Assembly (NCBI GenBank): GCA_017882375.1
Contig: JADGPP010000011.1
Coordinates: 1-55,326 of the forward strand
From: Solirubrobacteraceae bacterium
GTDB lineage: Bacteria > Actinomycetota > Thermoleophilia > Solirubrobacterales > Solirubrobacteraceae
DNA: 55,326 nucleotides
Direction: 5' to 3'
Positions 35,432-53,153 of this stretch are shown here, one piece after another. The notes under the pieces are model-generated. The model made no database searches. It was not told where the DNA came from and saw nothing but the letters and a program-made list of their open reading frames with translations. The position numbers were made by a program, and so were the translations under genes. Numbering within the stretch: position 1 is the first letter of the stretch; every line of letters starts with the position of its first letter.

Positions 35432-36811
35432 CTACTTCCTCCGCCCGGTCGAAGATGGAGCTACCGGTGGGCTTTGTCGAGAGGTGAGCGTCGTGGCGCC
35501 TACGATGATTCGCTCGCGCTGCGCAGCCTTCGTCCAGACCAGCGGGATGCCTCGGACCGAGCGCCAGCGGCTTGCGTACGTGTCGGGATCCCATTCAACG
35601 ACGGAACCTTGGGTGATCGCCTCGACGGCAACCCATTTTGAATCCCAGTCGAGCGGCACGCCCGTCACAGTGGAGATGTCGACGTGGACGCGGTCCGACG
35701 AGCCCCAGAGCGTGACGTTGCGCTCGTCATAGTCCAAGCCCCAAAGGCCGAGGCCCAGCACCTCGCTTGTGGCATCAAGGCCGACGGTTGCGGGCGCCGC
35801 TCGCACGCCGGCGAGCGACCCCGAGAGAATCTCGCGTACCTTGCTCTGGCGTCTTGGCAAGCCAGAGGTAGGCAGGCAACGTCGGCGTCCTTTCAACGCA
35901 CGTTTCTGAGCACGCTCCGGATATGGCATCGGCGGTTTGCCCGGGCCTCTGCGGCGGCGGGCCTCGTGCATCAGCTGGGCGACCTCGGCGTAGAAGTCTG
36001 CCCAGTAGGCGGTCACATGCGCGCGTGCCAGTCGCGCGCGGTTCGCGGACTCGAGCTCTCGGCGGACCTGTCCCGAGAGTCGGGGCGAGCTCTGACGGGT
36101 GAGGACGGCGACGTGTTGGCTGCCGGTAGCACCGTAGATCCACCGCAGGAGGTTCTGGTCGGTGAACGAAAGGCCGAGGAAGACGCAGACTCCGTTCAGC
36201 GCCTCGCTCATGAACTCGTCCTGCCAGCTGCCTGACGACCAAACGGCGTAGTCGCGCTCGGTGAGGACGACCGCGTCATTGGTGGGCGTGCCCGTCAGCA
36301 GGCCGTGGAGGTGACGGACAAACGCGGCCTCTCCCGGCTCGGGCGTGCTGTCCTCGCGCGGCTCGGCGGCCAGGCCCACATCCTGCAGGGCTCGCTCGAG
36401 CAGCTGGTCGTAGTTGAAGGTCGCGAGCTGAATCTCCGGGTAGGCCTGCTTCCAGGCCGCGATCTCGCGAGCCACGGGCCCGGGGTCGAAGTAGTCGGGA
36501 CCCTTCCCCCGGTAGAGATGCTCGTCGACGCGTTTGACGAACTCCTCGTCGCTTCCGGCCAGCACCCGCGCGGTCGCCGCCATCCCGAGCAGCCCTGATT
36601 CGGCCGCGGCATCCAGCCACGCTGCCCGATCATTCTCGTTGAGTGAGGCCGGGGCAGCTGCCTCCAACAGCGCGCGCACCAGACCCGCCCACGACGGCAG
36701 GCCGGCCTCCATCGATGCACCGGCTCCAACGACGAATGTCAGACGCTCCGACGCCGCTCGATGATCGGCTGAGGGTCGTTCTGCGCCTGCGGGACCAAGA
36801 ACCCGGGACAC
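35432..36811 (-). CDS. SIR2-domain protein (probable antiphage NADase)
   Basis: 459 residues. LTFVVGAGASMEAGLPSWAG is the SIR2 nucleotide loop, LATFNYDQLLERAL the TNYD-like motif, FVRHLHGLL the catalytic His region and VCVFLGLSFTDQNLLRWIYG the final SIR2_2 strand. About 200 residues of unrecognised C-terminal domain follow (GLGLWGLDYDERNVTLWGSS). SIR2-like enzymes of this type deplete NAD+ on phage sensing. The start is GTG 36811. Near the 3' end coding character passes to another frame running to TGA 35367, so the last ~40 residues may be frameshifted. Confidence 0.8.
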   Translation of the reverse strand: MSRVLGPAGAERPSADHRAASERLTFVVGAGASMEAGLPSWAGLVRALLEAAAPASLNENDRAAWLDAAAESGLLGMAATARVLAGSDEEFVKRVDEHLYRGKGPDYFDPGPVAREIAAWKQAYPEIQLATFNYDQLLERALQDVGLAAEPREDSTPEPGEAAFVRHLHGLLTGTPTNDAVVLTERDYAVWSSGSWQDEFMSEALNGVCVFLGLSFTDQNLLRWIYGATGSQHVAVLTRQSSPRLSGQVRRELESANRARLARAHVTAYWADFYAEVAQLMHEARRRRGPGKPPMPYPERAQKRALKGRRRCLPTSGLPRRQSKVREILSGSLAGVRAAPATVGLDATSEVLGLGLWGLDYDERNVTLWGSSDRVHVDISTVTGVPLDWDSKWVAVEAITQGSVVEWDPDTYASRWRSVRGIPLVWTKAAQRERIIVGATTLTSRQSPPVAPSSTGRRK

Positions 36812-39228: not shown

Positions 39229-41868
39229 GTGACCCCCGAGCGAAATCCCACGGTCCTTGTTTCGGGCGACGTGACGGTTGACTGGAGCCTGGCCCGGCGC
39301 GCGCCGGGGGGTGTCGCGGATGGATGGCATCCTGACCTCAAAGCGCGGGCACGCAGCGAGCGCGGCGGCGCTGCACTCCTTAGCGACCTCGTCGAGGCGG
39401 CACTCGCGCGAACGCCGGTCGAGGGGCCCGAGCCGGTCCTGCGTGGCGTAAGCCTGCTTGCGGACCGAGTCAGGCCCGACGAGGGGCGCTTCTCACACTC
39501 GTACGCAGTCTGGGCGCCGTGCGAGGTGCGGCGCGGCGAGAAGCGGCGCGTCTGGCGGGTTGATCCGCCGACGGGCCTGGACCGCGCCCGGTCCGACGAC
39601 TGGCTGCGAGAGGAGTGGGAGCGCCTCGCGCGCGACCTTCCCCAGGCTGACGTGATCGCCCTCGACGACGTCGCTCTGGGTTTCCGGGAGGGGTCCCAGT
39701 CCGAGCACTGGCGGCGGGTCGCGGAGGGCGAGCGGAACCCGTGGGTGCTGCTTAAGGCCTCGCGGCCGGTCGCTGACGGGCCGCTCTGGGAGCATCTGCG
39801 CGAGCATTGCGCCGAACGGCTTGTGGTGCTGATGACGATCGATGATCTGCGCGGCACTGCGGTGCAGGTCAGCCGCGAGCTCTCCTGGGAGCGCACCGCC
39901 CAGGACCTCTATTGGGAGCTGGTGAACAATCCGAAGGTCAATGGCCTGTCGCTTTGCGCCGGCGTGGTGATCTCTTTCGGGGCCGCCGGGGCCGTCCTGC
40001 TGTCCCGCACAACCGGCGAGAACGGGGCGGGACCACCACGCTGTTCGCTGCTCTTCGACCCGGAGGTGATCGAGGGCATGTGGGAGGCCGAGCGGCCGGG
40101 GGAGATGATCGGCGCGACCGCGTGCCTCGCAGCCTCGCTGGTCCGCGAGCTCGCCGCGGCCCACGAGGAACCCGACCTGGCACGGGCGATAGGCTCCGGT
40201 GTGGCCGCTGGCCGGCGCCTCTACGAGGAGGGTTACGGTGACGCGGACCGCGGGATGGACGTTGCGTTTCCGTTGGCAGCCGTGGTCGATCAGCTTGTGG
40301 CGGGAGACGGGTGCCTCGAACGTGTCGAGGTTCAGGATCCCGCCGCTTTCCTGCCCCAGCCGCAAGGCGAAGCCGGGCCTGCCGGCGGCTTGGGGCTGCC
40401 GCGGGTGGAGGGGCACTGGACGATCCTCGAGGACCGTTACAGCGGCGATCTGCGCGAGGTGGCTGTCGAGGTGGCGCTGCGCGGCCCCGAGGTCGCGCTC
40501 AAGGGCGTGCCGCTGGGGCGGTTCGGCAAGCTGCTCACCGTCGATCGCGGCGAGATCGAGAGCTTCCGGGCGGTGCGGGCGCTGATCGCCGAGTACTGCT
40601 CCTCTTCCTGGCAGACGCCGCTGTCGCTCGGCGTGTTCGGCGCCCCGGGGTCGGGGAAGTCGTTCGTCATGGTCCAGATGGCGGAATCCGTTGCTCCGGG
40701 CCTGATCAGCGAGAAGATCGAGTTCAACCTGTCGCAGTTCGCGTCGCTCAAGGACCTGCACGACGCCCTTCACCAGGTGCGCGATGTCGCGCTGTCGGGT
40801 GCGATCCCGCTCGTTTGCTGGGACGAGTTCGACGCGGGCTTCCAGGGCGAGAAGCTGGGCTGGCTGCGCTACTTCCTCGCGCCGATGGAGGACGGCAAGT
40901 TTCGCGAGGGGCAGGTGTGGCATCCGATCGGCCGCGCGATCTTCGTCTTCGCCGGGGGGACGAGCCATCGGATGCAGGACTTCGGCGCAGGCATCGACGA
41001 CGACACGTTCCGAAACCTCAAGGGGCCCGACTTCATCAGTCGGCTGAAGGGCTACGTCAACGTGCTCGGCGTGAATCCTCGCAAGGACGAGCGCGACCCC
41101 GATCATGTGATCCGGCGGGCGATATGGCTGCGCGCGATCCTCGAGCGTGACGCTCCCGGGCTCTTCGACGGCGACGGCGTGCTGCGGATCGACCGCGGGG
41201 TGCTCGGGGCGTTTCTCGAGATCGAGCAGTACGGTCACGGCGGCCGTTCGCTGGAGTCGATCGTCGCCACCAGCCGCCTCTCCGGGGAGACCTCCTATCA
41301 GCGCTCGAACCTCCCCTCGGAGAGCCAGCTCGACCTTCAAGTCAACGGACGCGAGTTCCTGGCCCTCGTGCAGCGCATCGACCTGGATGGCGAACCGCTC
41401 GAGCGCCTGGCGCAGGCCATGCACGAGATCTACTGCGAGGACCTGCGCTCGCACGGGGACGAGACCAGCAGCTCGCTCGTTCCATGGGAAGACCTCCCCG
41501 AGCACCTGAAGCGGCAGAACCGGGCAGCGGTTCGCGACATCCCACAGAAGCTCCAGCGGATCGGCCACGTGATGATCCCGGCGCGAAGCCACGACGCGCC
41601 CTTCGACTTCCCCGGCGAGGGACTCGAGGAAGTCGCCCAGGACGAGCACCTCCGCTACGTGGACGCGAAGCTCGCCGAGGGCTGGAGCGTCGGGCCGGAA
41701 AAGGACGACGAGAAGAAGACCAACCCCACCCTCGTTCCCTGGGAGGAGCTGCCCGAGGACGAGCGCGAGAAGGACCGCGCGCAGGTCCGCGGGATCCCCC
41801 GCGTGCTCGCCCGAGCCGGGTACACGGTCGTGCGCTCCTCGCGGGAGAACGACAACCGGACGCCATAG
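39229..41868 (+). CDS. P-loop ATPase with two C-terminal RyR domains
   Basis: 879 residues. The N-terminus (PTVLVSGDVTVDWSLAR; later VVISFGAAGAVLLSR) resembles ribokinase/PfkB-like folds. An AAA-type ATPase follows: GVFGAPGSGKSFVM (Walker A, ~467), IPLVCWDEFDAGF (Walker B, ~527), AIFVFAGGTSH (sensor 1). Two RyR repeats end it: SSLVPWEDLPEHLKRQNRAA (~748) and LAEGWSVGPEKDDEKKTNPT with LVPWEELPEDEREKDRAQVR (~815-855). RyR domains were proposed to bind nucleotide signals in bacterial conflict systems. TAG overlaps the GTG of the SLOG gene, so the two are co-translated. Start: GTG 39229. Confidence 0.85.
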   Translation: MTPERNPTVLVSGDVTVDWSLARRAPGGVADGWHPDLKARARSERGGAALLSDLVEAALARTPVEGPEPVLRGVSLLADRVRPDEGRFSHSYAVWAPCEVRRGEKRRVWRVDPPTGLDRARSDDWLREEWERLARDLPQADVIALDDVALGFREGSQSEHWRRVAEGERNPWVLLKASRPVADGPLWEHLREHCAERLVVLMTIDDLRGTAVQVSRELSWERTAQDLYWELVNNPKVNGLSLCAGVVISFGAAGAVLLSRTTGENGAGPPRCSLLFDPEVIEGMWEAERPGEMIGATACLAASLVRELAAAHEEPDLARAIGSGVAAGRRLYEEGYGDADRGMDVAFPLAAVVDQLVAGDGCLERVEVQDPAAFLPQPQGEAGPAGGLGLPRVEGHWTILEDRYSGDLREVAVEVALRGPEVALKGVPLGRFGKLLTVDRGEIESFRAVRALIAEYCSSSWQTPLSLGVFGAPGSGKSFVMVQMAESVAPGLISEKIEFNLSQFASLKDLHDALHQVRDVALSGAIPLVCWDEFDAGFQGEKLGWLRYFLAPMEDGKFREGQVWHPIGRAIFVFAGGTSHRMQDFGAGIDDDTFRNLKGPDFISRLKGYVNVLGVNPRKDERDPDHVIRRAIWLRAILERDAPGLFDGDGVLRIDRGVLGAFLEIEQYGHGGRSLESIVATSRLSGETSYQRSNLPSESQLDLQVNGREFLALVQRIDLDGEPLERLAQAMHEIYCEDLRSHGDETSSSLVPWEDLPEHLKRQNRAAVRDIPQKLQRIGHVMIPARSHDAPFDFPGEGLEEVAQDEHLRYVDAKLAEGWSVGPEKDDEKKTNPTLVPWEELPEDEREKDRAQVRGIPRVLARAGYTVVRSSRENDNRTP

Positions 41869-42530
41869 TGGTGGCGATCGGTGTCACCGGGCACCGGGTG
41901 CTGGCCGAGCAGGGGAAGCTCGAGGCCGGGCTCGACGACGTGGCCTCTCGGATCGCGGCGGGCTTCCCCGGCGAGCCGTGGACTGTCATCTCAGCCCTGG
42001 CCGAAGGAGCGGATCGACTCGTGGCGCGCCGGTTGCTCGCCGGGCCCGCGACGCGGCTCGTGGCCGTGCTGCCACTCGCGGCCGGTGACTACGAGGCCAA
42101 CTTCTCGGCCGCTCCCTCGCGTCAGGAGTTCCGCGCACTCCTCGACGGCGCGGACGAGGTGATCGAGGTCGTGCCCGCAACGAGCCAAGACGCGGCCTAC
42201 GAGGCGGCCGGTCGCGAGGTTCTCGACCGCGCCGACGTCCTGGTCGCAGTCTGGGACGGGCAAGGCGCGCAGGGCCAGGGCGGCACGGCCGCCATCGTCG
42301 CGCAGGCGCGCGCACGCGGCCTGCCGCTGGCCTGGGTGCACGCAGGCAACCGCAAGCCCGGGACGCTGGAGCCGACCTCGCTCGGCGCCGAGCAGGGCGC
42401 GGTTACTTTCGAGCGGCTTCCCGAAGGCGGCCGGGGGGGCGAGCGACCGTGGCTGCCCGAATTCGTGAGCCCCCGCTCCCGATCGCCTGGGTGCGCGGGC
42501 GGGACCGCAAACCCGGCACAAGCAAGCTGA
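41868..42530 (+). CDS. SLOG/TIR-like Rossmannoid nucleotide-handling protein
   Basis: 220 residues from GTG 41868. IGVTGHRVLAEQGKLEAGLD, WTVISALAEGADRLVARRLL, VAVLPLAAGDYEANFS and DVLVAVWDGQGAQGQGGTAA are the conserved strands of the SLOG family found with RyR, STAND and CBASS-type genes; the GHR and EGAD loops should bind a nucleotide. After VTFERLP (~42,425) similarity ends; the last ~35 residues read into a relic of a second SLOG gene. It may make or sense the ligand of the RyR protein. Confidence 0.85.
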   Translation: MVAIGVTGHRVLAEQGKLEAGLDDVASRIAAGFPGEPWTVISALAEGADRLVARRLLAGPATRLVAVLPLAAGDYEANFSAAPSRQEFRALLDGADEVIEVVPATSQDAAYEAAGREVLDRADVLVAVWDGQGAQGQGGTAAIVAQARARGLPLAWVHAGNRKPGTLEPTSLGAEQGAVTFERLPEGGRGGERPWLPEFVSPRSRSPGCAGGTANPAQAS

Positions 42531-42578
42531 CCTCGCTGGGAGAGGAACGGGGGCAGTGTCACCTACGAGCACTTCTAA
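42474..42578 (+). pseudogene. 3' end of a second SLOG gene copy
   Basis: PIAWVRGRDRKPGTSKLTSL followed, after a frame change, by GGSVTYEHF and TAA 42576-42578. It parallels the end of the intact SLOG gene (LAWVHAGNRKPGTLEPTSLG ... AVTFERLP) 130 bp upstream. A second paralogue was therefore deleted almost entirely, joining its tail to the first. Confidence 0.7.
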
Positions 42579-42658
42579 CCGGCTGGCGACGAGCGTCTGG
42601 TGCTCGTCGATCGCCCATCGCAGATACGTGGCGAAGCGAGGAGGAGGGAGCTAGTCCG

Positions 42659-42820
42659 ATGGCGGAGACCTGGAAAACCGTCCGCGTCTTCATCAGCAGC
42701 ACCTTCCGCGACATGCACGCAGGGAGGGATCACCTGGTCAACGTGGTCTTCCCGGAGCTCAGGACCAGAGGAGCGCGCTGGCCGCTCGGTTACCGCCACA
42801 CCCGCCATCCTATGGCTTGA
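42659..42820 (+). pseudogene. DUF4062 (STAND-associated) protein, 5' stub
   Basis: Fifty-three codons after a good ribosome site (GAGGAGGGAG): MAETWKTVRVFISSTFRDMH then AGRDHLVNVVFPELRTRG. This is the opening of DUF4062 proteins. The remainder of the domain and any NACHT/ATPase part are missing; the frame continues into unrelated sequence and stops at 42818. Same strand and order as the RyR and SLOG genes, so it was probably the third cistron. Confidence 0.8.
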
Positions 42821-42920: not shown

Positions 42921-43073
42921 TCACGCTCCGAATGGCTTCAGCCACAGGGTGGCCAACGAGGCCCAGACGGCGATTCCGAGGGCCATCTCGCGGCGCAGCG
43001 CCCGCGCGAAGGCCTCGAGGGTCGTTCGCCGGTCGTCTGTCTCGGTGTTTGGGGTGCTTTGCACGGCCTTCAC
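42921..43073 (-). pseudogene. N-terminal stub similar to the start of the WD40 gene
   Basis: Fifty codons from GTG 43073, overlapping the zinc-ribbon stop (GTGA). TETDDRRTTLEAFARALRRE parallels AERTRAQDKRGAVFTAFARA-LRRE at the start of the WD40 gene. It then diverges (MALGIAVWASLATLWLKPFG) and stops. It looks like the beginning of a further WD40-type cistron whose body was lost, or a changed short membrane peptide. Confidence 0.5.
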
Positions 43074-45758
43074 TGCTCCTGCTCGAGCAGCGACTCGCCG
43101 ACGACAAACGTGTTCACGCGCAGCGGCCCGGTGCACTCCGGGTTTGGGCAGGCGATGTCGCTGCCGCGCCACCCCTCCTGGAAAGGCGCGGGCTTGTCGC
43201 ACCAGGGGCAGCGGATCACCGTTCCCTCGCCGAGGTCGACGCCGGTGACGATCAGGGGCTTCTTGGCGGTGCTCGAGCCGCCGCCGAGCTTGGCGAGGGC
43301 GAGCTCGTAGTCGTCCTGGAGCTGGAAAACACCTGTGTAGGTCGTGGTCGGGTTGCCCTCGGCGTCGTTGTGCTCGGCGACTGCGACCTCGGCAGCCTTG
43401 TGCTCGAGGAACTTGAAGTCGGTCAGGGTCTCGTAGAGCTGGTCCAGCTCGCCGGCCTCGGCGAGGTGGAAGGGGAGCTCGCTCAGGCCGCGGGCGTAGC
43501 CGCCCGTCCAGGTGCCGGTCATCCTGTGGGTCGGAGCGGCCGCGGAAGTGGCCGGCGAGGGCGGTGTGGCGTCTCGGCCCGTGCTCGCCTGCCAGGTACT
43601 CGGCGTTCGCGGCCTCGCGCAGCTGGTTGTGGTAGAAGGCGAGCAGGGTCGTCCCCTCAGCGCTTCGCTCGCTCAGGTAGGGCGCGAGGTCGAAGTACAG
43701 GCGCGACCAGACGACGATCGGCAGGCGCTCGATCTCAGGCGAGCGACGGGCGTGCTCGCGGAAGTCGCGCTTGACCTCGTCGTCGAGGGAGAGGACGTCG
43801 ATGATCTCGTCCTCGGAAAGCCCGAAGCGGGAGGCGGCCAGGTAGCCGAGCGAGTGGGCGACCATCACGCGGCCGTGGTTGGCGGGCTGGGCGAGCCGCG
43901 CGAACAGGTTCTCGCGGATCAGCGCTGGGATCCCCTCGCCCAGGACCGTCTCCTCGGGCTCGGCGTAGGAGCGCCAGAGGCGCGCCTCCTCGAACGCCAG
44001 CCTCAGATAGAGCGGCAGGCCCTCTGAGGCGAACTTGGCGAGCACCTCCTCTTCCTGGTGCTCCTGGAGCGTGCGCCCGGCCTGCTCGAGCCAGCGCCCG
44101 ACCAGCTCCTTACCCTCCTCGGGCGACATCGCTTCGAGCGGGACGAGCTCGGGGGCCGGATGCTTGGCCCGCAGCGCCTGCTCGCAGTCGCCGGGCAGGG
44201 TCGAGAGGACGACGCGCACGTGCTCGGGCAGGGCGCCGGGCAGCCAGGAGAGGCCGCGCGCAACTCCCGAGAGCTGGTCGAGCGCATCGACGAACAGGAC
44301 AAGCGGCCTGTCGGCGCTCGCCAGCTCCATCCGTTTTCCGAGCTCGACGGCCAGGTCGTTGTACTCGCTGGGGACGTCTGACTCGTCGGCCTGGTAGGCG
44401 CGCGAGATCTCGCGGCAGAGCGAGTCAAGCAGCGCACGGCCGTCGGAGGAGGCGGGTGTGGCGCCGATGAAGCGGACGAGCGTGACAGCGCCCGGGTGGT
44501 CGGCGCGCGCCCTTTCCAGCGCCTTCGCCATCAGCGCGGACTTGCCCGAGCCGGGCTCGCCGACGATGGCAAAGAGATCCTGCTCCCCTTCTGCCAGGTA
44601 CTGGGCGATGTGCGCCAGCGGCTGCTCGCGCCCGGTGAAATGGCCGCTTCGCTCGCGCCCGAACTCCTCGTGAGCCCAGATCTCCGCAGAGACGGGATCG
44701 ATCCGCTCGACCTGCTCGAGCTGGCCCAGGATGGTCGTGGCGAGGCTTCGCCAGACATCCAGGCAGAGCGTGCCCCTGGCCTGGGAGTCGTCGAGGAGCG
44801 CGAGGCTGTCGTCGAGCGAATCCGGCAGCGACCCGAGATGGTCCTCACCGACGCTCCCTCCGCTCCAGGTCGCCTCGTAGTCGTGGACGTTCTTTCCGAG
44901 CAGCCAGCGGAGCTTCTCCTCCTTGAGCTGGGCCAGGCGCTCGCGGGCCTCCTCATCGAGCCTCCGGTCGCTGATGGGATCGATGAGATCGACGAAGTCC
45001 TCCGCCAGCGGACGATCGTCCTGGCGCTCGACTTTCTCCGGCGGGATGTCTCTGACCAGCTCGTCGAGGTTCGTGATTGAGCGCAAGAAGCAGAAGACGT
45101 GCTCGGCCGCGTCGGGCACGCGCAGGGCGCCGCGCTCGATCTCCTGCTCGGTGGCGGAGGCCTCGTACTCAAGGCGCGCCTCCTCGCCCAGCCCGAGCGC
45201 CGCCACCGCGTCGAGCAGGATCTTGCGCAGGCTGCTCTCGGTCGCCGTCCACTTGGTCGCCTCGGCGTCCTGCGCGGCCTCCCTCGCCTCCTGGCTCGCC
45301 GTCTCCGCGATCTCGAGCCGGCGCGGCTGCAGGCAATAGACGGGCGGGGCGGCGTTCTCGTCGAGGCGGTACCAGGCCTCGAGCAGCGCCTCGTCCTGGG
45401 CGTCTGTGACCTGGGCCCTGATCCGCTCGAGCTGCTCGGCCGGGATCTCGGCCAAAAGCGCGCGCCAGCCGTAGTGCTCGCCGAGCAGAACGACGAAGTT
45501 GGGACGCGGCGTCGTGCGCTGGCAACGCTCGATCTCGCCCAAACAGATCGACATCGTCCGCTGGTCGAGCCCAGCCTCCTCGCTCACCCCCCAGCGCAGG
45601 TCGATCGCTTGGAAGCGGCCGCCACGGCTGGCGCAGAGCTCGCGCAGGCGCGGGAAGACGTAGCGCTGGAGCGCGTCTCTCTCCGCCTTCAGGTCGCTGA
45701 AGGTCGAGCTGACGAAGATGCGAAACGTGCTGCTTGGCGGTACGGCTTCCCTGGCCAT
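43070..45758 (-). pseudogene. DUF4062-NACHT STAND ATPase with C-terminal zinc ribbon; one frameshift
   Basis: ATG 45758 follows GAGGGAG. Residues ~10-110 are DUF4062 (FRIFVSSTFSDLKAERDALQ, AIDLRWGVSEEAG). The NTPase has LFAIVGEPGSGKSALMAKAL (Walker A, ~398) and RPLVLFVDALDQLSG (Walker B, ~483); helical ARM/TPR-like sequence follows. Near 43,515 coding passes into another frame (SDPQDD then TWTGGYARGLSELPFHLAEA), ending at 43070 with a zinc ribbon, CPWC...CPNPEC. The unshifted frame runs on to 42921 without similarity. Unless the shift is programmed or a base error, the protein loses its last 150 residues. Last main gene of the WD40 operon. Confidence 0.8.
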
Positions 45759-45825
45759 CGCGCTCCCTCTCGGTTCTGTCTCACTCTCGTGTTCGCCGAC
45801 GCCGGAACATCCGGGACTGCTTCGG

Positions 45826-48027
45826 TCACGAGGCCTTGAGTTCCGTTACGAACGGGTTGACACGCATGTGCCCCTCGCAGCCGAGGCGCGGGCAGCCAAC
45901 CACCTGGCCGAACCAGTTCTGCTCGAGCGGCGATTTCTCGAGACAGGCCGGGCAGCGGACGTGCGGACCGTCGCCGCGGTCGATCGCGGTCACGATGACC
46001 GGGCCGTGCTCGATACCCTCTAGATCTATCAAGTGAACGCCGCCGCCGCTGTCACCGCAGACCGCGCGGGGAAGCCACGGGTACGTGGCGACACAGAGAA
46101 CGCGTCCCAGAAACGGGAGCGTGCCCAGCAAGCGGCCGCTTTCTGCGTCCCAGAGCTTGAGCGTGTTATCGCGGCTCACCGAGACGATGAAGCGCCCGTC
46201 GGGGCTGACCGCGCAGCCCTCGACCCAGTCGCTGTGTCCTTCGAGCGTGCGCAGCTCGCGGCCGCTCTCTGCGTCCCAGAGCTTGAGCGTCTTATCGCGG
46301 CTCGCCGAGACGATCAAGCGCCCGTCGGGGCTGACCGCGCAGCCCCGGACGCCATCGCTATGTCCTTCGAGCGTGCGTAGCTCGCGGCCGCTTTCTGCGT
46401 CCCAGAGCTTGAGCGTTTGGTCGACGCTCGCCGAGACGATAAAGCGGCCGTCGGGGCTGACCGCGCAGCCCCGGACGCCATCGCTATGTCCTTCGAGCGT
46501 GCCCAGCTCGCGGCCGCTCTCTGCGTCCCACAGCTTGAGCGTGTGATCCCAGCTCGCCGAGACGATGAAGTGGCCGTCGGGGCTGGCCGCGCAGCCGCAG
46601 ACCGAGTTGCTGTGTCCTTCGAGCGTGCGCAGCTCGCGGCCGCTTTCGGCGTCCCAGAGCTTGAGCGTGTTATCCCAGCTCGCCGAGACGATGAAGCGGC
46701 CGTCGGGGCTGACCGCGCAGCCCTCGACCCAGTGGCTGTGTCCTTCGAGTATGCGCAGCTCGCGGCCGCTCTCTGCGTCCCAGAGCTTGAGCGTGTTATC
46801 CCAGCTCGCCGAGACGATGAAGCGGCCGTCGGGGCTGACCGCGCAGGCATTGACGAAGCCGCTGTGTCCTTCGAGTGTGCGTAGCTCGCGGCCGCTCTCT
46901 GTGTCCCAGAGCTTGAGCGTCCGGTCTTCGCCGGCCGAGACGATGAAGCGGCCGTCGGGGCTGACCGCGCAGCCCAGGACCTCGCCGCTGTGTCCTTCGA
47001 GCGTGCCCAGCTCGCGGCCGCTCTCTGCGTCCCAGAGCTTGAGCGTCTGGTCGTAGCTCGCCGAGACGATCAAGCGGCCGTCGGGGCTGAGCGCGCAGCC
47101 CTGGACCCAGTTGCTGTGTCCTTCGAGCGTGCCCAGCTCGCGGCCGCTCTCCGCGTCCCACAGCTTGAGCGTCTTATCGCAGCTCGCCGAGACGATGAAA
47201 CGGCCGTCGGGGTTGACCGCGCAGGCCGAGACCGAGGCGCTGTGTCCTTCAAGCGTGCGCAGCTCGCGGCCGCTCTCTGCGTCCCACAGCTTGAGCGTGT
47301 TATCCCAGCTCGCCGAGACGATGAAGCGGCCGTCGGGGCTGACCGCGCAGCCGCGGACCCAAGCGCTGTGTCCTTCGAGCGTGCGCAGCTCGCGGCCGCT
47401 CTCTGCGTCCCACAGCTTGAGCGTCCGGTCGTCGCTGGCCGAGACGATGAAGCGGCCGTCGGGGCTGACCGCGCAGCCCGAGACCTCGCCGCTGTGTCCT
47501 TCGAGCGTGCGCAGCTCGCGGCCGCTCTCTGCGTCCCACAGCTTGAGTGTCTTGTCGCGGCTCGCCGAGACGATCAAGCGGCCGTCGGGGCTGACCGCGC
47601 AGCCCTGTACCCAGTGGCTGTGTCCTTCGAGCGTGCGCAACTCGCGGCCGCTCTCTGTGTCCCAGAGCTTGAGCGTGTTATCCCAGCTCGCCGAGACGAT
47701 GAAGCGGCCGTCGGGGCTGACCGCGCAGGCATTGACGAAGCCGCTGTGTCCTTCGAGAACGCTAAGCAGCGCGCTCGACTCATGGAAGGGAGTCTTGGTC
47801 TTGAGCCAGGGAGTCGAGCCGGGCCTGCTCCGCTCCTCGAGCGCCCGCTCAAGCACCGCCGGTACAGGCTCCTCCTCCCACTGCAGCCGATTGTAGAGCT
47901 GCTGCCAGAGGAGTTCGGGCTGGTTCTGGAGCACGTACGCCTCGCGGCGCAGGGCGCGCGCGAAGGCCGTGAAGACGGCGCCTCGCTTGTCCTGGGCGCG
48001 CGTCCTCTCAGCCGTCGCGGCGACCAT
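45826..48027 (-). CDS. WD40 protein (two predicted propellers) with C-terminal zinc ribbon
   Basis: About 733 residues from ATG 48027, which aligns best with the related stub at 43,073; ATG 48063 adds 12. An N-terminal helical part (AFARALRREAYVLQNQPELL) is the linker normally found between NACHT and WD40 in NACHT-WD40 proteins. Thirteen near-identical 42-residue WD40 repeats (SPDGRFIVSASWDNTLKLWD) and one divergent repeat would build two seven-blade propellers. The end, VRCPACLEKSPLEQ ... GCPRLGCEGHMRVNPFV, is a zinc ribbon shared with the next gene. Likely the sensor arm of a split NACHT-WD40 machine. Confidence 0.9.
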   Translation of the reverse strand: MVAATAERTRAQDKRGAVFTAFARALRREAYVLQNQPELLWQQLYNRLQWEEEPVPAVLERALEERSRPGSTPWLKTKTPFHESSALLSVLEGHSGFVNACAVSPDGRFIVSASWDNTLKLWDTESGRELRTLEGHSHWVQGCAVSPDGRLIVSASRDKTLKLWDAESGRELRTLEGHSGEVSGCAVSPDGRFIVSASDDRTLKLWDAESGRELRTLEGHSAWVRGCAVSPDGRFIVSASWDNTLKLWDAESGRELRTLEGHSASVSACAVNPDGRFIVSASCDKTLKLWDAESGRELGTLEGHSNWVQGCALSPDGRLIVSASYDQTLKLWDAESGRELGTLEGHSGEVLGCAVSPDGRFIVSAGEDRTLKLWDTESGRELRTLEGHSGFVNACAVSPDGRFIVSASWDNTLKLWDAESGRELRILEGHSHWVEGCAVSPDGRFIVSASWDNTLKLWDAESGRELRTLEGHSNSVCGCAASPDGHFIVSASWDHTLKLWDAESGRELGTLEGHSDGVRGCAVSPDGRFIVSASVDQTLKLWDAESGRELRTLEGHSDGVRGCAVSPDGRLIVSASRDKTLKLWDAESGRELRTLEGHSDWVEGCAVSPDGRFIVSVSRDNTLKLWDAESGRLLGTLPFLGRVLCVATYPWLPRAVCGDSGGGVHLIDLEGIEHGPVIVTAIDRGDGPHVRCPACLEKSPLEQNWFGQVVGCPRLGCEGHMRVNPFVTELKAS
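46122..47760 (-). repeat. Thirteen 126-bp WD40-encoding tandem repeats
   Basis: Unit length is exactly 126 bp (42 codons). The repeats are nearly identical in DNA, for example the block encoding SGRELRTLEGHS. Variation is concentrated at the positions after EGHS (GFV, HWV, GEV, AWV, ASV, NWV, NSV, DGV, DWV) and before TLKLWD (WDN, RDK, DDR, CDK, YDQ, EDR, VDQ), that is, at the blade surface. Confidence 0.95.
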
Positions 48028-48067
48028 CGTTGCTCGGCCGCATAGCGGTGTCGAGACATGCACGCGA

Positions 48068-48438
48068 TTACAGATCGAGCACCGACCCCTCCGCCGCCAC
48101 GCTCACCTTGGGGGAGACACCGTTGAGCCGGCGCGCCAGCCCGTCGAGGGCGTCGTCGGTGCAGTCATGCCGGTGGTGGAAGAGCACGACCGATCGCGCG
48201 CCGGCGCGCCGGGCGAGCTCGACCGCATAGTGTGGCTGAGGAGGATCGTGCCCGTGAACGGCGCGCCGCCGAGAAGGGTTGAGACGGACTGGATCCCAGC
48301 GCCCGCGTCGAGGATGAGCGTCGGGGCTGGCGCGCCTTCATGCGCGAGCGCCAAGCACGAGGTGTGGCCCCCGTAACGGACGAAATCGATGCCAGGCGCA
48401 GGGGTCGATCCCCGCACGCCGCAGAAATGGACCCGCAA
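48068..48438 (-). pseudogene. MBL-fold hydrolase with central deletion
   Basis: Begins at TTG 48438: RVHFCGVRGSTPAPGIDFVR, YGGHTSCLALAHEG, LILDAGAGIQSVS, GTILLSHT. The next expected element, the HxHxDH metal site, is absent; instead the sequence jumps, in another frame, to the C-terminal part (HYAVELARRAGARSVVLFHH then RHDCTDDALDGLARRL) ending at TAA 48068. About 100 codons are missing, so no catalysis is possible. It overlaps none of its neighbours and follows the cNMP-binding fragment by 5 bp. Confidence 0.8.
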
Positions 48439-48443
48439 CCAGC

Positions 48444-48728
48444 TCAGCTCCGGTGGGGCATTGTCTTGCGGTGACCCTGGGAGAGCTCCTGAAGCGTCGT
48501 GCGATCAAGCTGCTCTGCCTCGAGCGGAGCCACCCTGCACGGTGTCACCGCCACGAGCGTCGAGGTTCGCCCGCCGTCCTGCGGGTGAGCCCGCTCCCCA
48601 AGCAGCGCACCCGGTCCGTACTTGTCGAGACGCTCGCCGTTCTCCTCGACACGGAGCACACCGTCGAGCAGTAGGAGGAGCTCCCACCCGGTTTGGACTT
48701 GGGTGACCAGCACGGTCCCGGCCTTCAC
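48444..48728 (-). CDS. Cyclic-nucleotide-binding domain protein, probably N-terminally truncated
   Basis: GTG 48728 gives 94 residues: VKAGTVLVTQVQTGWELLLL, LDGVLRVEENGERLDKYGPG, ALLGERAHPQDGGRTSTLVA. This is the core of a cNMP-binding barrel with the phosphate cassette GERAxxxGGRRTSTL. The frame is open upstream (ITQGGAKPAIRR) without a start, so the gene may have lost its beginning. Located just before the MBL relic; these two are often neighbours or fused. Confidence 0.65.
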   Translation of the reverse strand: MKAGTVLVTQVQTGWELLLLLDGVLRVEENGERLDKYGPGALLGERAHPQDGGRTSTLVAVTPCRVAPLEAEQLDRTTLQELSQGHRKTMPHRS

Positions 48729-49412: not shown

Positions 49413-51215
49413 CTAGCGCCGAGCGCTCGCGGCCACGCGCGGCGGCGGTGGTGCCGTCGCAGGGTCGGGCACCGACCAGACGCGCGCGGTGCCGCGGCGG
49501 CCACGAACCTCGAACTCGCCGACGCAGACGAGGTCATCTGGACGGTCGCCTAGCAGCGCGCACGTCGAGTCGGCCATGAACAGCATGTGCTCAGTGCCCT
49601 TTGTCATGCCCTCGAGGCGCGACGCGGTGTTCGTCGTGTCGCCGATCGCTGTGTACTCGACGCGCCGCTCCGAGCCGACGTTTCCTACCATCACCTCGCC
49701 GCTGTTGAGCCCGATGCCCATCCGGAAACCGGGGCCCTCGAGGTCGTGCTCCTGCAGCCACGAGTTGAAGCGGGCAAGCCGCGGCCCCATCATCTCGCGC
49801 GCGGCGCGCAACGCGCGATCGGCGTGGTCGGCCTGTGGCAGCGGCGCCCCGAACACGGCCATGATGCCGTCGCCCATGTAGCAGGTCAGCGTCCCACCGG
49901 CCGCGAGGATGGCGTCGGTCATCTGATCGAGATAGACGTTTACGACATCGATTACCGTTCCGGCCGCCAGGCCCTCGGAGAAGCTCGTGAACCCGCGCAG
50001 GTCGCAGAACATCACAGTGCAAATGCGCTGCTCGCCACCGAGCCGCAGGTCCTCACCGGCCCGCGCCAGCACGTCCTCGACCACCGCTTCGGGCACGAAG
50101 CGGGAGAACACGTCCTTCACCCGCTGGCGCTCGAATGCAGTGAACAGGTAGTCGACGCCGAGCGTCGAGATGGTCGCCACCAGCACCGCGAGCAGCGGAT
50201 AGGCGAACGGGAGGATCAGGCCGGCGTCGAAGGCCAGCTGCGTAACGCAGACATAGCCGCCCGACACCGCTAGCGCGAAGGCGCCGATGCGCCACGAGCG
50301 CAGGCGCACGTTGGCGAGCGGCACCGCCAGCCCGAGCGCCGCGACGATTAGCAGGTCGAGCCAGGCGGGCGATTCGCGCAACGGAAGGCCGCGCAGAACG
50401 CTCGCGACGGCATTCGCATGTATCTCCGGACCGGACATCGGCTCGCTGCGCGACGCCGCGGTCTGATGGATGTCTTGCAGGTTCGGCGCGGTCGCGCCGA
50501 CGATCACGATCTTGCCCTTGAACGCCGAGGCGGGCACCTTGCCTTCGAGCACGCGCGAGAACGAGACGGTAGTGATCGTCCCGGGCGGCCCCGCGAAGTC
50601 GACCGGAATGCCGCCACCGCCGAATGTGCTGCTGGCGACCTTCCGGCCACTTGCTCGTTCGGCGACGACGACCGGGAAGCTCTCGAGCCCCTGTAGCGAG
50701 GGCCACAAGCGCCGCAGCACACCGTCGCCGTCGAGCTTGACGCTGCTGTCACCGACGCGGGCGCCGACCTCGCGCACCACGTCGGCGCCCCCGAGGACGT
50801 TGACCTCGCCGTTGGCAGCGACCTCGTCGGTGGCGAGCACAACGTTGTGGGCGCGGCCGATCGCGTCGATCAACGCATTGTCGTCAGCCGGGTCAGTCGG
50901 CTCGGTGAACTGCACGTCGTAGGCGATCACCTTGGCGCCGTCTGCGCGCAGGCGAGCGATCAGACGGGCGTGGACGCGGCGCGGGAACGGCCACTGCTGC
51001 TGCAGGTCGCTGAAGGTGACATCGTCGATCGCGACGACGACGATGTCGCGCGGAGGCCGCTGCGGCCCGCGAACGCTGAAATGCGCGTCACGGACGTCGA
51101 GTTCGGGACCACGCAGCAGGTTCGTTCCGTACGCGGCCACCGCCAGCCCGACCGCGACCAGGCCGGCGGCTATCAGCAGCAACGGTCGCCGCCGGCGCCA
51201 GTGCTTCTCAGACAC
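49413..51215 (-). CDS. CHASE2-domain adenylate/guanylate cyclase
   Basis: 600 residues. One N-terminal span (LLLIAAGLVAVGLAVAAYGT), an extracellular CHASE2 sensor to ~residue 280 (VVVAIDDVTFSDLQQQWPFP, KGKIVIVGATAPNLQDIHQT), three spans (~285-365), then a class III cyclase: VMFCDLRGFTSFSEGL and CYMGDGIMAVFGAPLP hold the two metal-binding Asp, VEYTAIGDTTNTASRLEGMT the transition-state Asn/Arg. Follows the cNMP-binding patatin by 12 bp; the two probably form a signal-maker and signal-reader pair. Confidence 0.9.
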   Translation of the reverse strand: MSEKHWRRRRPLLLIAAGLVAVGLAVAAYGTNLLRGPELDVRDAHFSVRGPQRPPRDIVVVAIDDVTFSDLQQQWPFPRRVHARLIARLRADGAKVIAYDVQFTEPTDPADDNALIDAIGRAHNVVLATDEVAANGEVNVLGGADVVREVGARVGDSSVKLDGDGVLRRLWPSLQGLESFPVVVAERASGRKVASSTFGGGGIPVDFAGPPGTITTVSFSRVLEGKVPASAFKGKIVIVGATAPNLQDIHQTAASRSEPMSGPEIHANAVASVLRGLPLRESPAWLDLLIVAALGLAVPLANVRLRSWRIGAFALAVSGGYVCVTQLAFDAGLILPFAYPLLAVLVATISTLGVDYLFTAFERQRVKDVFSRFVPEAVVEDVLARAGEDLRLGGEQRICTVMFCDLRGFTSFSEGLAAGTVIDVVNVYLDQMTDAILAAGGTLTCYMGDGIMAVFGAPLPQADHADRALRAAREMMGPRLARFNSWLQEHDLEGPGFRMGIGLNSGEVMVGNVGSERRVEYTAIGDTTNTASRLEGMTKGTEHMLFMADSTCALLGDRPDDLVCVGEFEVRGRRGTARVWSVPDPATAPPPPRVAASARR

Positions 51216-51227
51216 GGCGTGCGCCTC

Positions 51228-53153
51228 CTAGCCGGCCAGCGCCGGACGCTCTGCGAGCATGCGCTCGAGCTGGGGAAGCATGCGCCTCGTGGCATCCACC
51301 CCGTGCTCGATCAACGGCGCCGCGCGGTGGAAGTCGACCCAGGTGAAATCGGAGGTGTCGACGTCTATGCGCGCGTCGGCCGCGTTCGCCTCGAAGCTCC
51401 CGAGCTGGTACTGGAGCAACTGCAGCGCGTTCATCACCACGTCCAGCATCGTCGGCATGCCGCGGCTGCCGACGAGGTACGACAGCGGGTTGACCGCGTT
51501 GACCCGATCGCTCACGCGTGAGAACACGGTCCTGACTCCCTTGCGCAACGTCGGGATCACCATCACGGCGATGCAGACGTCGGCACCCATGTCGCGGACG
51601 AGCTCGACCGGCACCTGATCGACGACGGCACCGTCGACGAGCGCGCGACCGTCGCGCCGCACCGGGGCGAACACAGCTGGGATCGAAGCGCTCGCCCGGC
51701 AGGCATCCGCGAGCGAACCTGTGCCGATCCAGACCTGTTCGCCCGATTCGATGTCGGTGGCCGTCGCGCGAAACGGCAGCACGAGGTCCTCAAATGTCCC
51801 GGTGATTCCGAGCTCTGCGAGCACCGCCTTGAGCCGGTTGCCCGCGAGTAGGCCGGGCCGCGCGACCGTCGGGTCGATCACCGACAGCGCCTTGCGCTTC
51901 GTGCCGAACCGCCCTGCGCGCGCGACCAGCTCCTCGGCGCTGAGCCCGGCCGCGTAGGCGGCGCCGACGATCGAGCCCATGCTCGTGCCGGCGAGGAGGT
52001 CAATCGGGATGCCGGCATCCTCGAGCGTCTTGAGCACCCCGATGTGCGCGAGGCCGAAGGCCGCGCCGCCCGCGAGCGCCACGCCGATGCTCGCTCCCCT
52101 GACCTTGCGCGCCAGCCGCTCCAGCACCAGCGCGGCCGGGGAGCGCGGGTGCTCCAGCAGGTAGAGGGCGGCCGCGGCCGGCTCCAGCCGCCGCAGCGAC
52201 GGGTCCTCGGGAAGCACGAACGGCTCGCAGCGGTTGATCGGCGGCCGTGCGCTGGCGCCGTTGTGGAGATCGACCACGCGCAGGACTCGCGTGCGCGATA
52301 GGTGGCCATCGCCGCGGCCGGCGTCCGATCGGGCGACGAGCTCGACGACCACGTCGCAGACCTCGCCCGCGATCGCGCCGAGCTGCCCGAAGTCGAGCAC
52401 GACGAGCGGATAGCGCGGATTGAGCGCCTCGATCAAAGCGGTGAGCCGCCGCGGCGCGTCCTCGGCAAGCTCACTCAGCGACAGCACCGCGAGGTCGGCG
52501 TCGCGTTCGAGGCGACGCGCGAAGCCGTCGTAGCCATCCAGGAGGAGCTCAGCGTCGCTCGACGGCGCCTGCTCCGTGAACCCGATCAGCGCGACCTCCA
52601 TGCCGACCTGCCGGCGCAGCAGCGCGGCGAGGCAGTGCGCGACGAGCGTCTTGCCCCGCAGCCCATCCTCGCCACAGACGCCGATCGTCAGCGTCGAGCG
52701 ACATGGAACCTCGGCGCGCGTTCGCGCGTCGAGTTGCTGCGAGAGGTCACGCGCGATGCAGGTGACGAGCTTGGCGTTGCGCTCGGTCAGACGGCGGAAC
52801 TCGGCGCCGTCGAGCGCAAGCAGGCGCGCCGGCCGCGACACCCGGACGGTCGCAGTGCGCCGGCCGCCGAGCAGGAGCGCGACCTCGCCGAGGTGGCAGC
52901 CAGGCCCGAGCCGGTTGACGACCTGCGGCTCGGCGCCGCCGCCGACGATCTCGAGCTCCCCGTGTGCGACAACGATGAAGTCGCCCCCCTCATCGCCCTC
53001 GCAAAACAGCGTGTCGCCCCGGCGGTAGGAGAGCTCGCGGAACCGGGCGGCGAGCTCCTGCAGCTCGGCGGGGTCGAGCGAGCCGAACATCGGGATGCCG
53101 GCGAGCAGTGCGACCCGCTCGACTAGCTCCGTGCCTCTCGCAGTCGCGGCCAT
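51228..53153 (-). CDS. Cyclic-nucleotide-binding patatin-like phospholipase
   Basis: 641 residues. Residues ~20-130 are a cNMP-binding barrel (GDTLFCEGDEGGDFIVVAHG, GEVALLLGGRRTATVRVSRP). A middle domain (~150-340) resembles a MinD/P-loop-like fold without a clear Walker A (CGEDGLRGKTLVAH). The C-terminal patatin has GVALAGGAAFGLAHIGVLKT (oxyanion loop), GTSMGSIVGA (nucleophile Ser, ~388) and DGAVVDQVP (Asp of the dyad, ~503). NTE/RssA-like enzymes hydrolyse membrane lipids. Its neighbour makes the cyclic nucleotide that would gate it. Confidence 0.9.
   Translation of the reverse strand: MAATARGTELVERVALLAGIPMFGSLDPAELQELAARFRELSYRRGDTLFCEGDEGGDFIVVAHGELEIVGGGAEPQVVNRLGPGCHLGEVALLLGGRRTATVRVSRPARLLALDGAEFRRLTERNAKLVTCIARDLSQQLDARTRAEVPCRSTLTIGVCGEDGLRGKTLVAHCLAALLRRQVGMEVALIGFTEQAPSSDAELLLDGYDGFARRLERDADLAVLSLSELAEDAPRRLTALIEALNPRYPLVVLDFGQLGAIAGEVCDVVVELVARSDAGRGDGHLSRTRVLRVVDLHNGASARPPINRCEPFVLPEDPSLRRLEPAAAALYLLEHPRSPAALVLERLARKVRGASIGVALAGGAAFGLAHIGVLKTLEDAGIPIDLLAGTSMGSIVGAAYAAGLSAEELVARAGRFGTKRKALSVIDPTVARPGLLAGNRLKAVLAELGITGTFEDLVLPFRATATDIESGEQVWIGTGSLADACRASASIPAVFAPVRRDGRALVDGAVVDQVPVELVRDMGADVCIAVMVIPTLRKGVRTVFSRVSDRVNAVNPLSYLVGSRGMPTMLDVVMNALQLLQYQLGSFEANAADARIDVDTSDFTWVDFHRAAPLIEHGVDATRRMLPQLERMLAERPALAG

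Follow-up and report, generated by a model that had tools for sequence, protein, structure and literature searches.

The window analysed here, a stretch of 55,326 nucleotides from a Solirubrobacteraceae bacterium (contig JADGPP010000011.1), encodes a receptor of the NWD1/TEP1/Apaf-1 kind on two separate minus-strand genes. A linker-WD40-ribbon gene (45826-48063), intact and coding for 745 amino acids (aa) with a helical linker, two propellers and a C-terminal zinc ribbon, is followed downstream by a DUF4062-NACHT-ribbon gene (45758-43070). The initial annotation had reported this gene order and a similar zinc ribbon at the end of both chains. Its observation holds: the order was confirmed and the two ribbons proved homologous. 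We think it probable that the pair represents a split NOD-like receptor (NLR), in which a hub carrying a nicotinamide adenine dinucleotide (NAD) hydrolase, or NADase, is completed by interchangeable WD40 sensors. The copy in the window is damaged.

The two chains and the position of the cut

The NACHT gene matched Pfam DUF4062 (PF13271) with 41.3 bits (cutoff, 24.7) and Pfam NACHT (PF05729) with 39.2 bits (cutoff, 26.7). In its DUF4062 segment, a probable TIR-like NADase domain (45722-45462), the candidate catalytic glutamate E75 is near-invariant in our alignment A3, and residues C72 and E75 would fit the TIR-type WCxxE pattern. In the NACHT/STAND NTPase segment (44639-43968), the Walker A (GEPGSGKS) and Walker B (LVLFVDALDQ) motifs are both intact. 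The first half of an APAF1_C-like helical arm follows (43477-43385), matched weakly and below cutoff (PF17908 positions 35-65, E 0.017; 15.5 bits versus a cutoff of 22.8), and the chain ends with the zinc ribbon (43261-43100), delimited by ribbon sequence and profile comparison. The DUF4062-NACHT-ribbon content agrees with the initial annotation, which had however overlooked a one-base frameshift near 43,520-43,545. Because of this shift, the helical arm and the ribbon lie in the frame 43522-43070 and not in that of DUF4062-NACHT. Intact copies of the gene are present in relatives, and the intact NACHT chain of locus L091 was modelled with a predicted local distance difference test score (pLDDT) of 89.9 and a predicted template modelling score (pTM) of 0.86. 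The NACHT chains nearest to that of the window, with 67% identity, come from metagenome-assembled genomes (MAGs) of Chloroflexi, and the end of the window chain was matched in 2 of the 299 genomes of its class, its own included.

The WD40 chain starts with a linker reading AFARALRREAYVL...PELLWQQLYNRLQW. Residues 26-80 of the chain, AFARALRRE...LLWQQLYNRLQW (47988-47824), form helices in the structure model and are followed by the WD40 blades (47808-46018), 13 of which have exactly 42 aa, then by the ribbon (46005-45847), detected by a profile match. In the AlphaFold2 model of this chain (pLDDT 91.1, pTM 0.86), N-terminal helices precede two propellers and an ordered ribbon, and PF00400 matched 13 stretches of the sequence. 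The linker is the most constant region of split WD40 chains, with E41, Q54, Q55, N58-W62 and W86 invariant across 11 of them. The 13 blades of the window chain are near-identical repeats (mean identity, 0.83) whose variation is concentrated at repeat positions 4, 5, 7, 23 and 25. Codon differences, counted pairwise between blades and thus not independent, amounted to 329 nonsynonymous and 6 synonymous at the hypervariable sites and to 225 and 292, respectively, elsewhere. A similar pattern of hypervariability was found in chains of L124, L131 and L017.

We located the cut by comparison with Apaf-1. Residues 355-825 of the L091 NACHT-chain model aligned with Apaf-1 residues 112-535 (Z score, 17.6; root mean square deviation, 4.9; 384 residues), so that the NACHT chain terminates within the HD2 arm, at about Apaf-1 residue 535. 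With Foldseek, the best Apaf-1 match of the window WD40-chain model spanned approximately 739 columns (TMq 0.71). In the fused relatives L023, L024 and L046, the segment preceding the ribbon matched APAF1_C positions 35-78 above cutoff, and the linker past the ribbon of L024 matched positions 87-123, albeit weakly. Judging from these matches, the cut and the ribbon insertion most likely fall at about position 78-87 of the 135-residue APAF1_C domain. We propose that the remainder of the APAF1_C/HD2 arm is the linker heading every split WD40 chain, so that the window linker helices would be the second half-arm. The two half-arms may pack together, and the divided helical arm is our candidate for the universal joint of the split receptor.

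Distribution of the split arrangement and of the zinc ribbon

Scanning 84,980 species genomes, we obtained 78 loci. At most of them DUF4062-NACHT and WD40 are fused in one chain, in agreement with the initial annotation, which had described the homologues as normally single chains and the window as an exception. In the NACHT-chain tree, the window groups with L091, L015, L022, L016, L029, L006, L025 and L026 in one clade (support, 96/97), all nine members of which are split. As the whole clade shares the arrangement, the split is inherited and old rather than an accident of the window genome. L017, also split, is sister to this clade with weaker support (81/89), and L063 and L071 are cases of separate splits. 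By their labels (Chloroflexi, Acidobacteria, Thermoleophilia, Bacteroidales and Syntrophomonadaceae), the records come from five phyla. There are 14 split loci, including L052 and L062, which carry none of the conclusions; the short split calls at L052, L062 and L066 may be frameshifts. Given that the receptor is encoded by two genes in the window and across the nine-member clade, instead of forming one polypeptide, we classed the window as a split variant and not as a plain DUF4062-NACHT-WD40 member.

WD40-only chains were found at 12 of the 14 split loci, two or more of them at 7, versus 4 of the 66 other loci. These counts and the hypervariability of the blades fit several variable sensors serving one switch chain. 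A second type of WD40 chain, devoid of the ribbon and with another linker (RFPEQLTGRL...APRPWFCPLTP), was observed in L015 (16820-19060), L091 (16828-19128) and L016 (6945-9239). The genome of L017 also harbors a 1781-aa fused NACHT-WD40-ribbon chain (L129, 4070-9412) with an extra TIR-like N-terminal segment (VISYSHKDFDLAREI).

The two ribbons of the window aligned with a score of 139, compared with 25 +/- 5 and a maximum of 54 for shuffled sequences. When the whole genome was searched, they were 43% identical over 54 aa with an E value of 2e-10, and one profile matched both with 76-77 bits. In a PDB profile search the ribbon profile matched the LysW-type structure 5k2m (E 1.4e-4). Individual ribbons were weak in Pfam, and the window ribbon had no Pfam match above cutoff. 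Separately, one protein of L052 (7751-9640) gave two or more weak ribbon matches, which are probably general zinc ribbons.

The initial annotation had suggested that the shared ribbon could be the joint of the split receptor; the NACHT and WD40 ribbons would then pair with each other. Their homology stood, as did their presence on neighboring genes elsewhere. Six clade members carry the ribbon at the NACHT end, and five of these six loci have it at the WD40 end too (Fisher p 0.013), and the fused chains L023, L024, L046 and L128 have it at both the junction and the C terminus (4/4, p 0.0004), although both p values ignore phylogeny. Furthermore, the NACHT ribbon is located at the cut, after a flexible stretch. 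However, the split pairs L006, L017, L025, L026 and L071 are devoid of ribbons, the split being more widespread on the tree than the ribbon, and in fused relatives, with the order NACHT-[ribbon]-linker-WD40 within one chain, ribbons sit at both places where no joint is needed. Nor did the two ribbons match each other locus by locus within the split clade (p 0.56), and tree-based contrasts, of which there were only two and which cannot decide the matter, did not support an association between split and ribbon. A locus-specific co-variation of the ribbons over all loci (p 0.03) was discarded, as it was driven by the fused chains. LysW-like ribbons are not known as dimerisers, which also weighs against pairing. 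Since several split pairs lack the ribbon, it is not an essential joint, and we consider its pairing function unlikely.

The ribbon might alternatively be a homotypic adaptor tag common to a set of sensor chains, not all of which would be linked to a NACHT gene, with a role like that of effector-associated domains. In the genome of L022, a HEAT-repeat chain (L123, 5991-9661) carries this ribbon at its C terminus and adjoins a linker-WD40-ribbon gene, no NACHT gene was detected on the 16 kb around it, and more WD40-ribbon chains are present on other contigs of that genome. Nevertheless, this is a single genome, and the other genomes searched did not make it a general rule; three of the remaining WD40-ribbon genes are located at the edges of contigs, so that a NACHT gene may be hidden from view. 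Such a role thus seems quite unlikely. We find it plausible, with a little less than even chances, that we are dealing with an unrelated accessory ribbon, such as a structural cap or a module binding nucleic acids or ligands, that was moved between chain ends by duplication, the split having occurred independently of it. This would account for the C-terminal ribbon without a partner at the junction in the fused chains L028, L032, L033, L039, L064, L072 and L129, for the resemblance between the two ribbons of L023 and for the LysW-like profile match. It explains less well that a junction or NACHT-end ribbon almost never occurs without one at the WD40 end, and that the ribbon lies exactly at the cut in several lineages. 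In our view, therefore, the ribbon serves as an accessory module, perhaps as a tag, and not as a general joint.

The damaged locus and its neighborhood

A third cistron (43073-42921, minus strand) begins with a GTG codon that overlaps the stop codon of the NACHT gene. As stated in the initial annotation, its start shares the AFARALRRE sequence of the linker, but homology goes no further than ALRRE, stopping near 42,986, and unrelated sequence lies beyond, indicating that it is only the remnant of a second linker-WD40 gene. The same position is occupied by a full linker-WD40 gene in L015, L022 and L091. On the plus strand, the start of another DUF4062 type (42660-42770; PF13271, E 3.4e-4) is cut off after the first approximately 36 residues. 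These two broken genes face each other head to head across some 200-230 bp, whereas in L015 all parts of the operon are on one strand, in the order AAA-RyR-SLOG, WD40-ribbon, NACHT-ribbon, WD40-ribbon, TrkA-N-RyR and WD40. The window locus therefore looks like a rearranged remnant of an L015-type operon. An origin of the approximately 230 bp between the truncated genes from a mobile element was rejected, as no second copy was found in the genome. We also observed that the end of the SLOG-like gene is present twice in different frames, followed by the truncated start of the other-type DUF4062 (42400-42820), which are rearrangement remnants.

One may ask whether the split itself is mere decay, or an assembly artefact, of a chain that was once single. 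The frameshift, the truncated third cistron, the truncated DUF4062 on the opposite strand and a metallo-hydrolase fragment nearby all speak of damage. The WD40 gene, however, precedes the NACHT gene and has its own start and linker, L015 and L022 have an identical order and cut, and the NACHT chain is split in 9/9 clade members. We thus regard decay or misassembly as a very unlikely origin of the split.

Next to the receptor genes, the plus strand encodes an AAA-type ATPase with a C-terminal RyR domain (39229-41868; PF02026, 60.2 bits) and a SLOG-like protein (approximately 41850-42530, the start being approximate), named by resemblance and without a Pfam match. An AAA-RyR gene adjoins NACHT in L006, L015, L016, L017, L022, L029 and L091. 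Genes for AAA-RyR, SLOG or TrkA-N-RyR proteins are close to the NACHT gene at 8 of the 14 split loci and at 26 of the 66 others. They recur beside both split and fused DUF4062-NACHT genes, for instance in L015 (4495-7944 and 15205-17016) and in L006 (10038-14634), and this set is possibly an NAD/ADP-ribose signaling cassette. DUF4062 is a family of NADases with a role in abortive infection for its bacterial members (PMC13174449), and immune signals based on ADP-ribose are bound or cleaved by RyR domains (PMC13232231). The partner genes might thus read or process the product of the NADase.

Further genes were noted around the locus. At 48103-48728, an N-terminal metallo-hydrolase-like fragment and a short open reading frame for a cyclic nucleotide monophosphate (cNMP)-binding protein both appear truncated. 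A CHASE2-cyclase gene adjoins a cNMP-binding patatin gene at 49413-53153, for which PADLOC gave weak matches to Pycsar cyclase and effector models. A gene for a SIR2_2 domain protein (35432-36811) encodes a further NAD-related protein near the locus.

A probable split receptor and its relation to known systems

In the split NLR that we favor, the NACHT chain would combine effector and switch, with the DUF4062 TIR-like NADase, the NACHT NTPase and the first APAF1_C/HD2 half-arm, and the separately encoded WD40 chains would supply the second half-arm and two propellers. A WD40 chain would complete the divided helical arm, thereby docking onto the NACHT chain, and would keep that chain inactive. 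Binding of a non-self ligand by the hypervariable propellers would then free the NACHT chain to oligomerize, and its NADase would generate ADP-ribose or a related signal, or else drain NAD. The RyR-AAA, SLOG and TrkA-N-RyR neighbors may read or process that signal. In one subgroup, the ribbon adds an accessory module, both at the cut and at the end of the WD40 chain.

A number of points weigh against this reading, in addition to the dependence among the blade codon counts. Nearly all relatives are MAGs, and as a consequence their taxonomic labels may err. The structure models are of single chains, and the assembly of the two chains into a complex is inferred. VIA-align of the WD40 model returned propeller matches only and was uninformative on linker and ribbon. 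The assignment of the linker helices to HD2 is thus based on the coverage by Foldseek, a single weak Pfam match and the order of the segments in the sequence. A sequence profile of the linker compared with PDB sequences did not find Apaf-1. PADLOC left the NACHT-WD40 pair unmatched, with only incidental (WD repeats) or marginal matches. Finally, owing to its frameshift and its remnant cistron, the window copy may be inactive or misassembled.

A wider arrangement can be envisaged, in which one NACHT-NADase hub works with several hypervariable WD40 (and HEAT) sensor chains, each from its own gene and in part unlinked in the genome, that dock via the divided HD2 arm and share the ribbon as a tag, with ADP-ribose-reading RyR proteins downstream. 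We put this sensor-hub network forward tentatively, as possible but on balance not to be expected; if true, it would parallel the division of plant NLRs into sensors and helpers. Should the two halves assemble, an Apaf-1-type sensor has been separated from its switch at one defined point, and this separation has been retained across phyla. Such a receptor would provide a natural two-part system for the transmission of WD40 sensing to a NACHT NTPase, a route for one effector to serve several variable sensors and a testable connection between the DUF4062 NADase and RyR proteins.

In its fused form, the domain set is already known, NWD1, TEP1 and bacterial chains related to them being examples. 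In an open-licence literature search, the split form, a cut-site ribbon and the serving of one NACHT gene by several WD40 genes were all absent, as were split bacterial NLRs and bacterial sensor/helper pairs; given that limit, this is weak evidence. NWD1/TEP1-type DUF4062-NACHT-APAF1_C-WD40 proteins and Apaf-1 resemble the window system in domain order, in the folds of both halves and, probably, in the helical arm before the propellers. In contrast with them, the window system is cut into at least two genes within the arm, has several WD40 chains at many loci and, in one subgroup of the split system, carries a ribbon at the cut. That ribbon shares the CPxC...CPxxxC core of LysW-like zinc ribbons but has an extended GPxIVTA start and an RVNxFV end, and it is found on receptor chains. 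Swarozyc, a bacterial DUF4062 NADase, likewise has DUF4062 as its effector, which in the window is a probable NADase; it carries a winged-helix auxiliary domain that binds the phage portal (PMC13174449), whereas DUF4062 in the window is combined with NACHT and separate WD40 sensors. The fungal NLRs HET-E and HET-D have near-identical WD40 repeats with high internal conservation, as in the window chain, and their repeat positions 11, 12, 14, 30 and 32, which are under diversifying selection, have the same spacing as positions 4, 5, 7, 23 and 25 of the window blades (PMC12222747). The sensors of HET-E and HET-D are fused to NACHT, however, whereas the variable sensor of the window is a separate chain.
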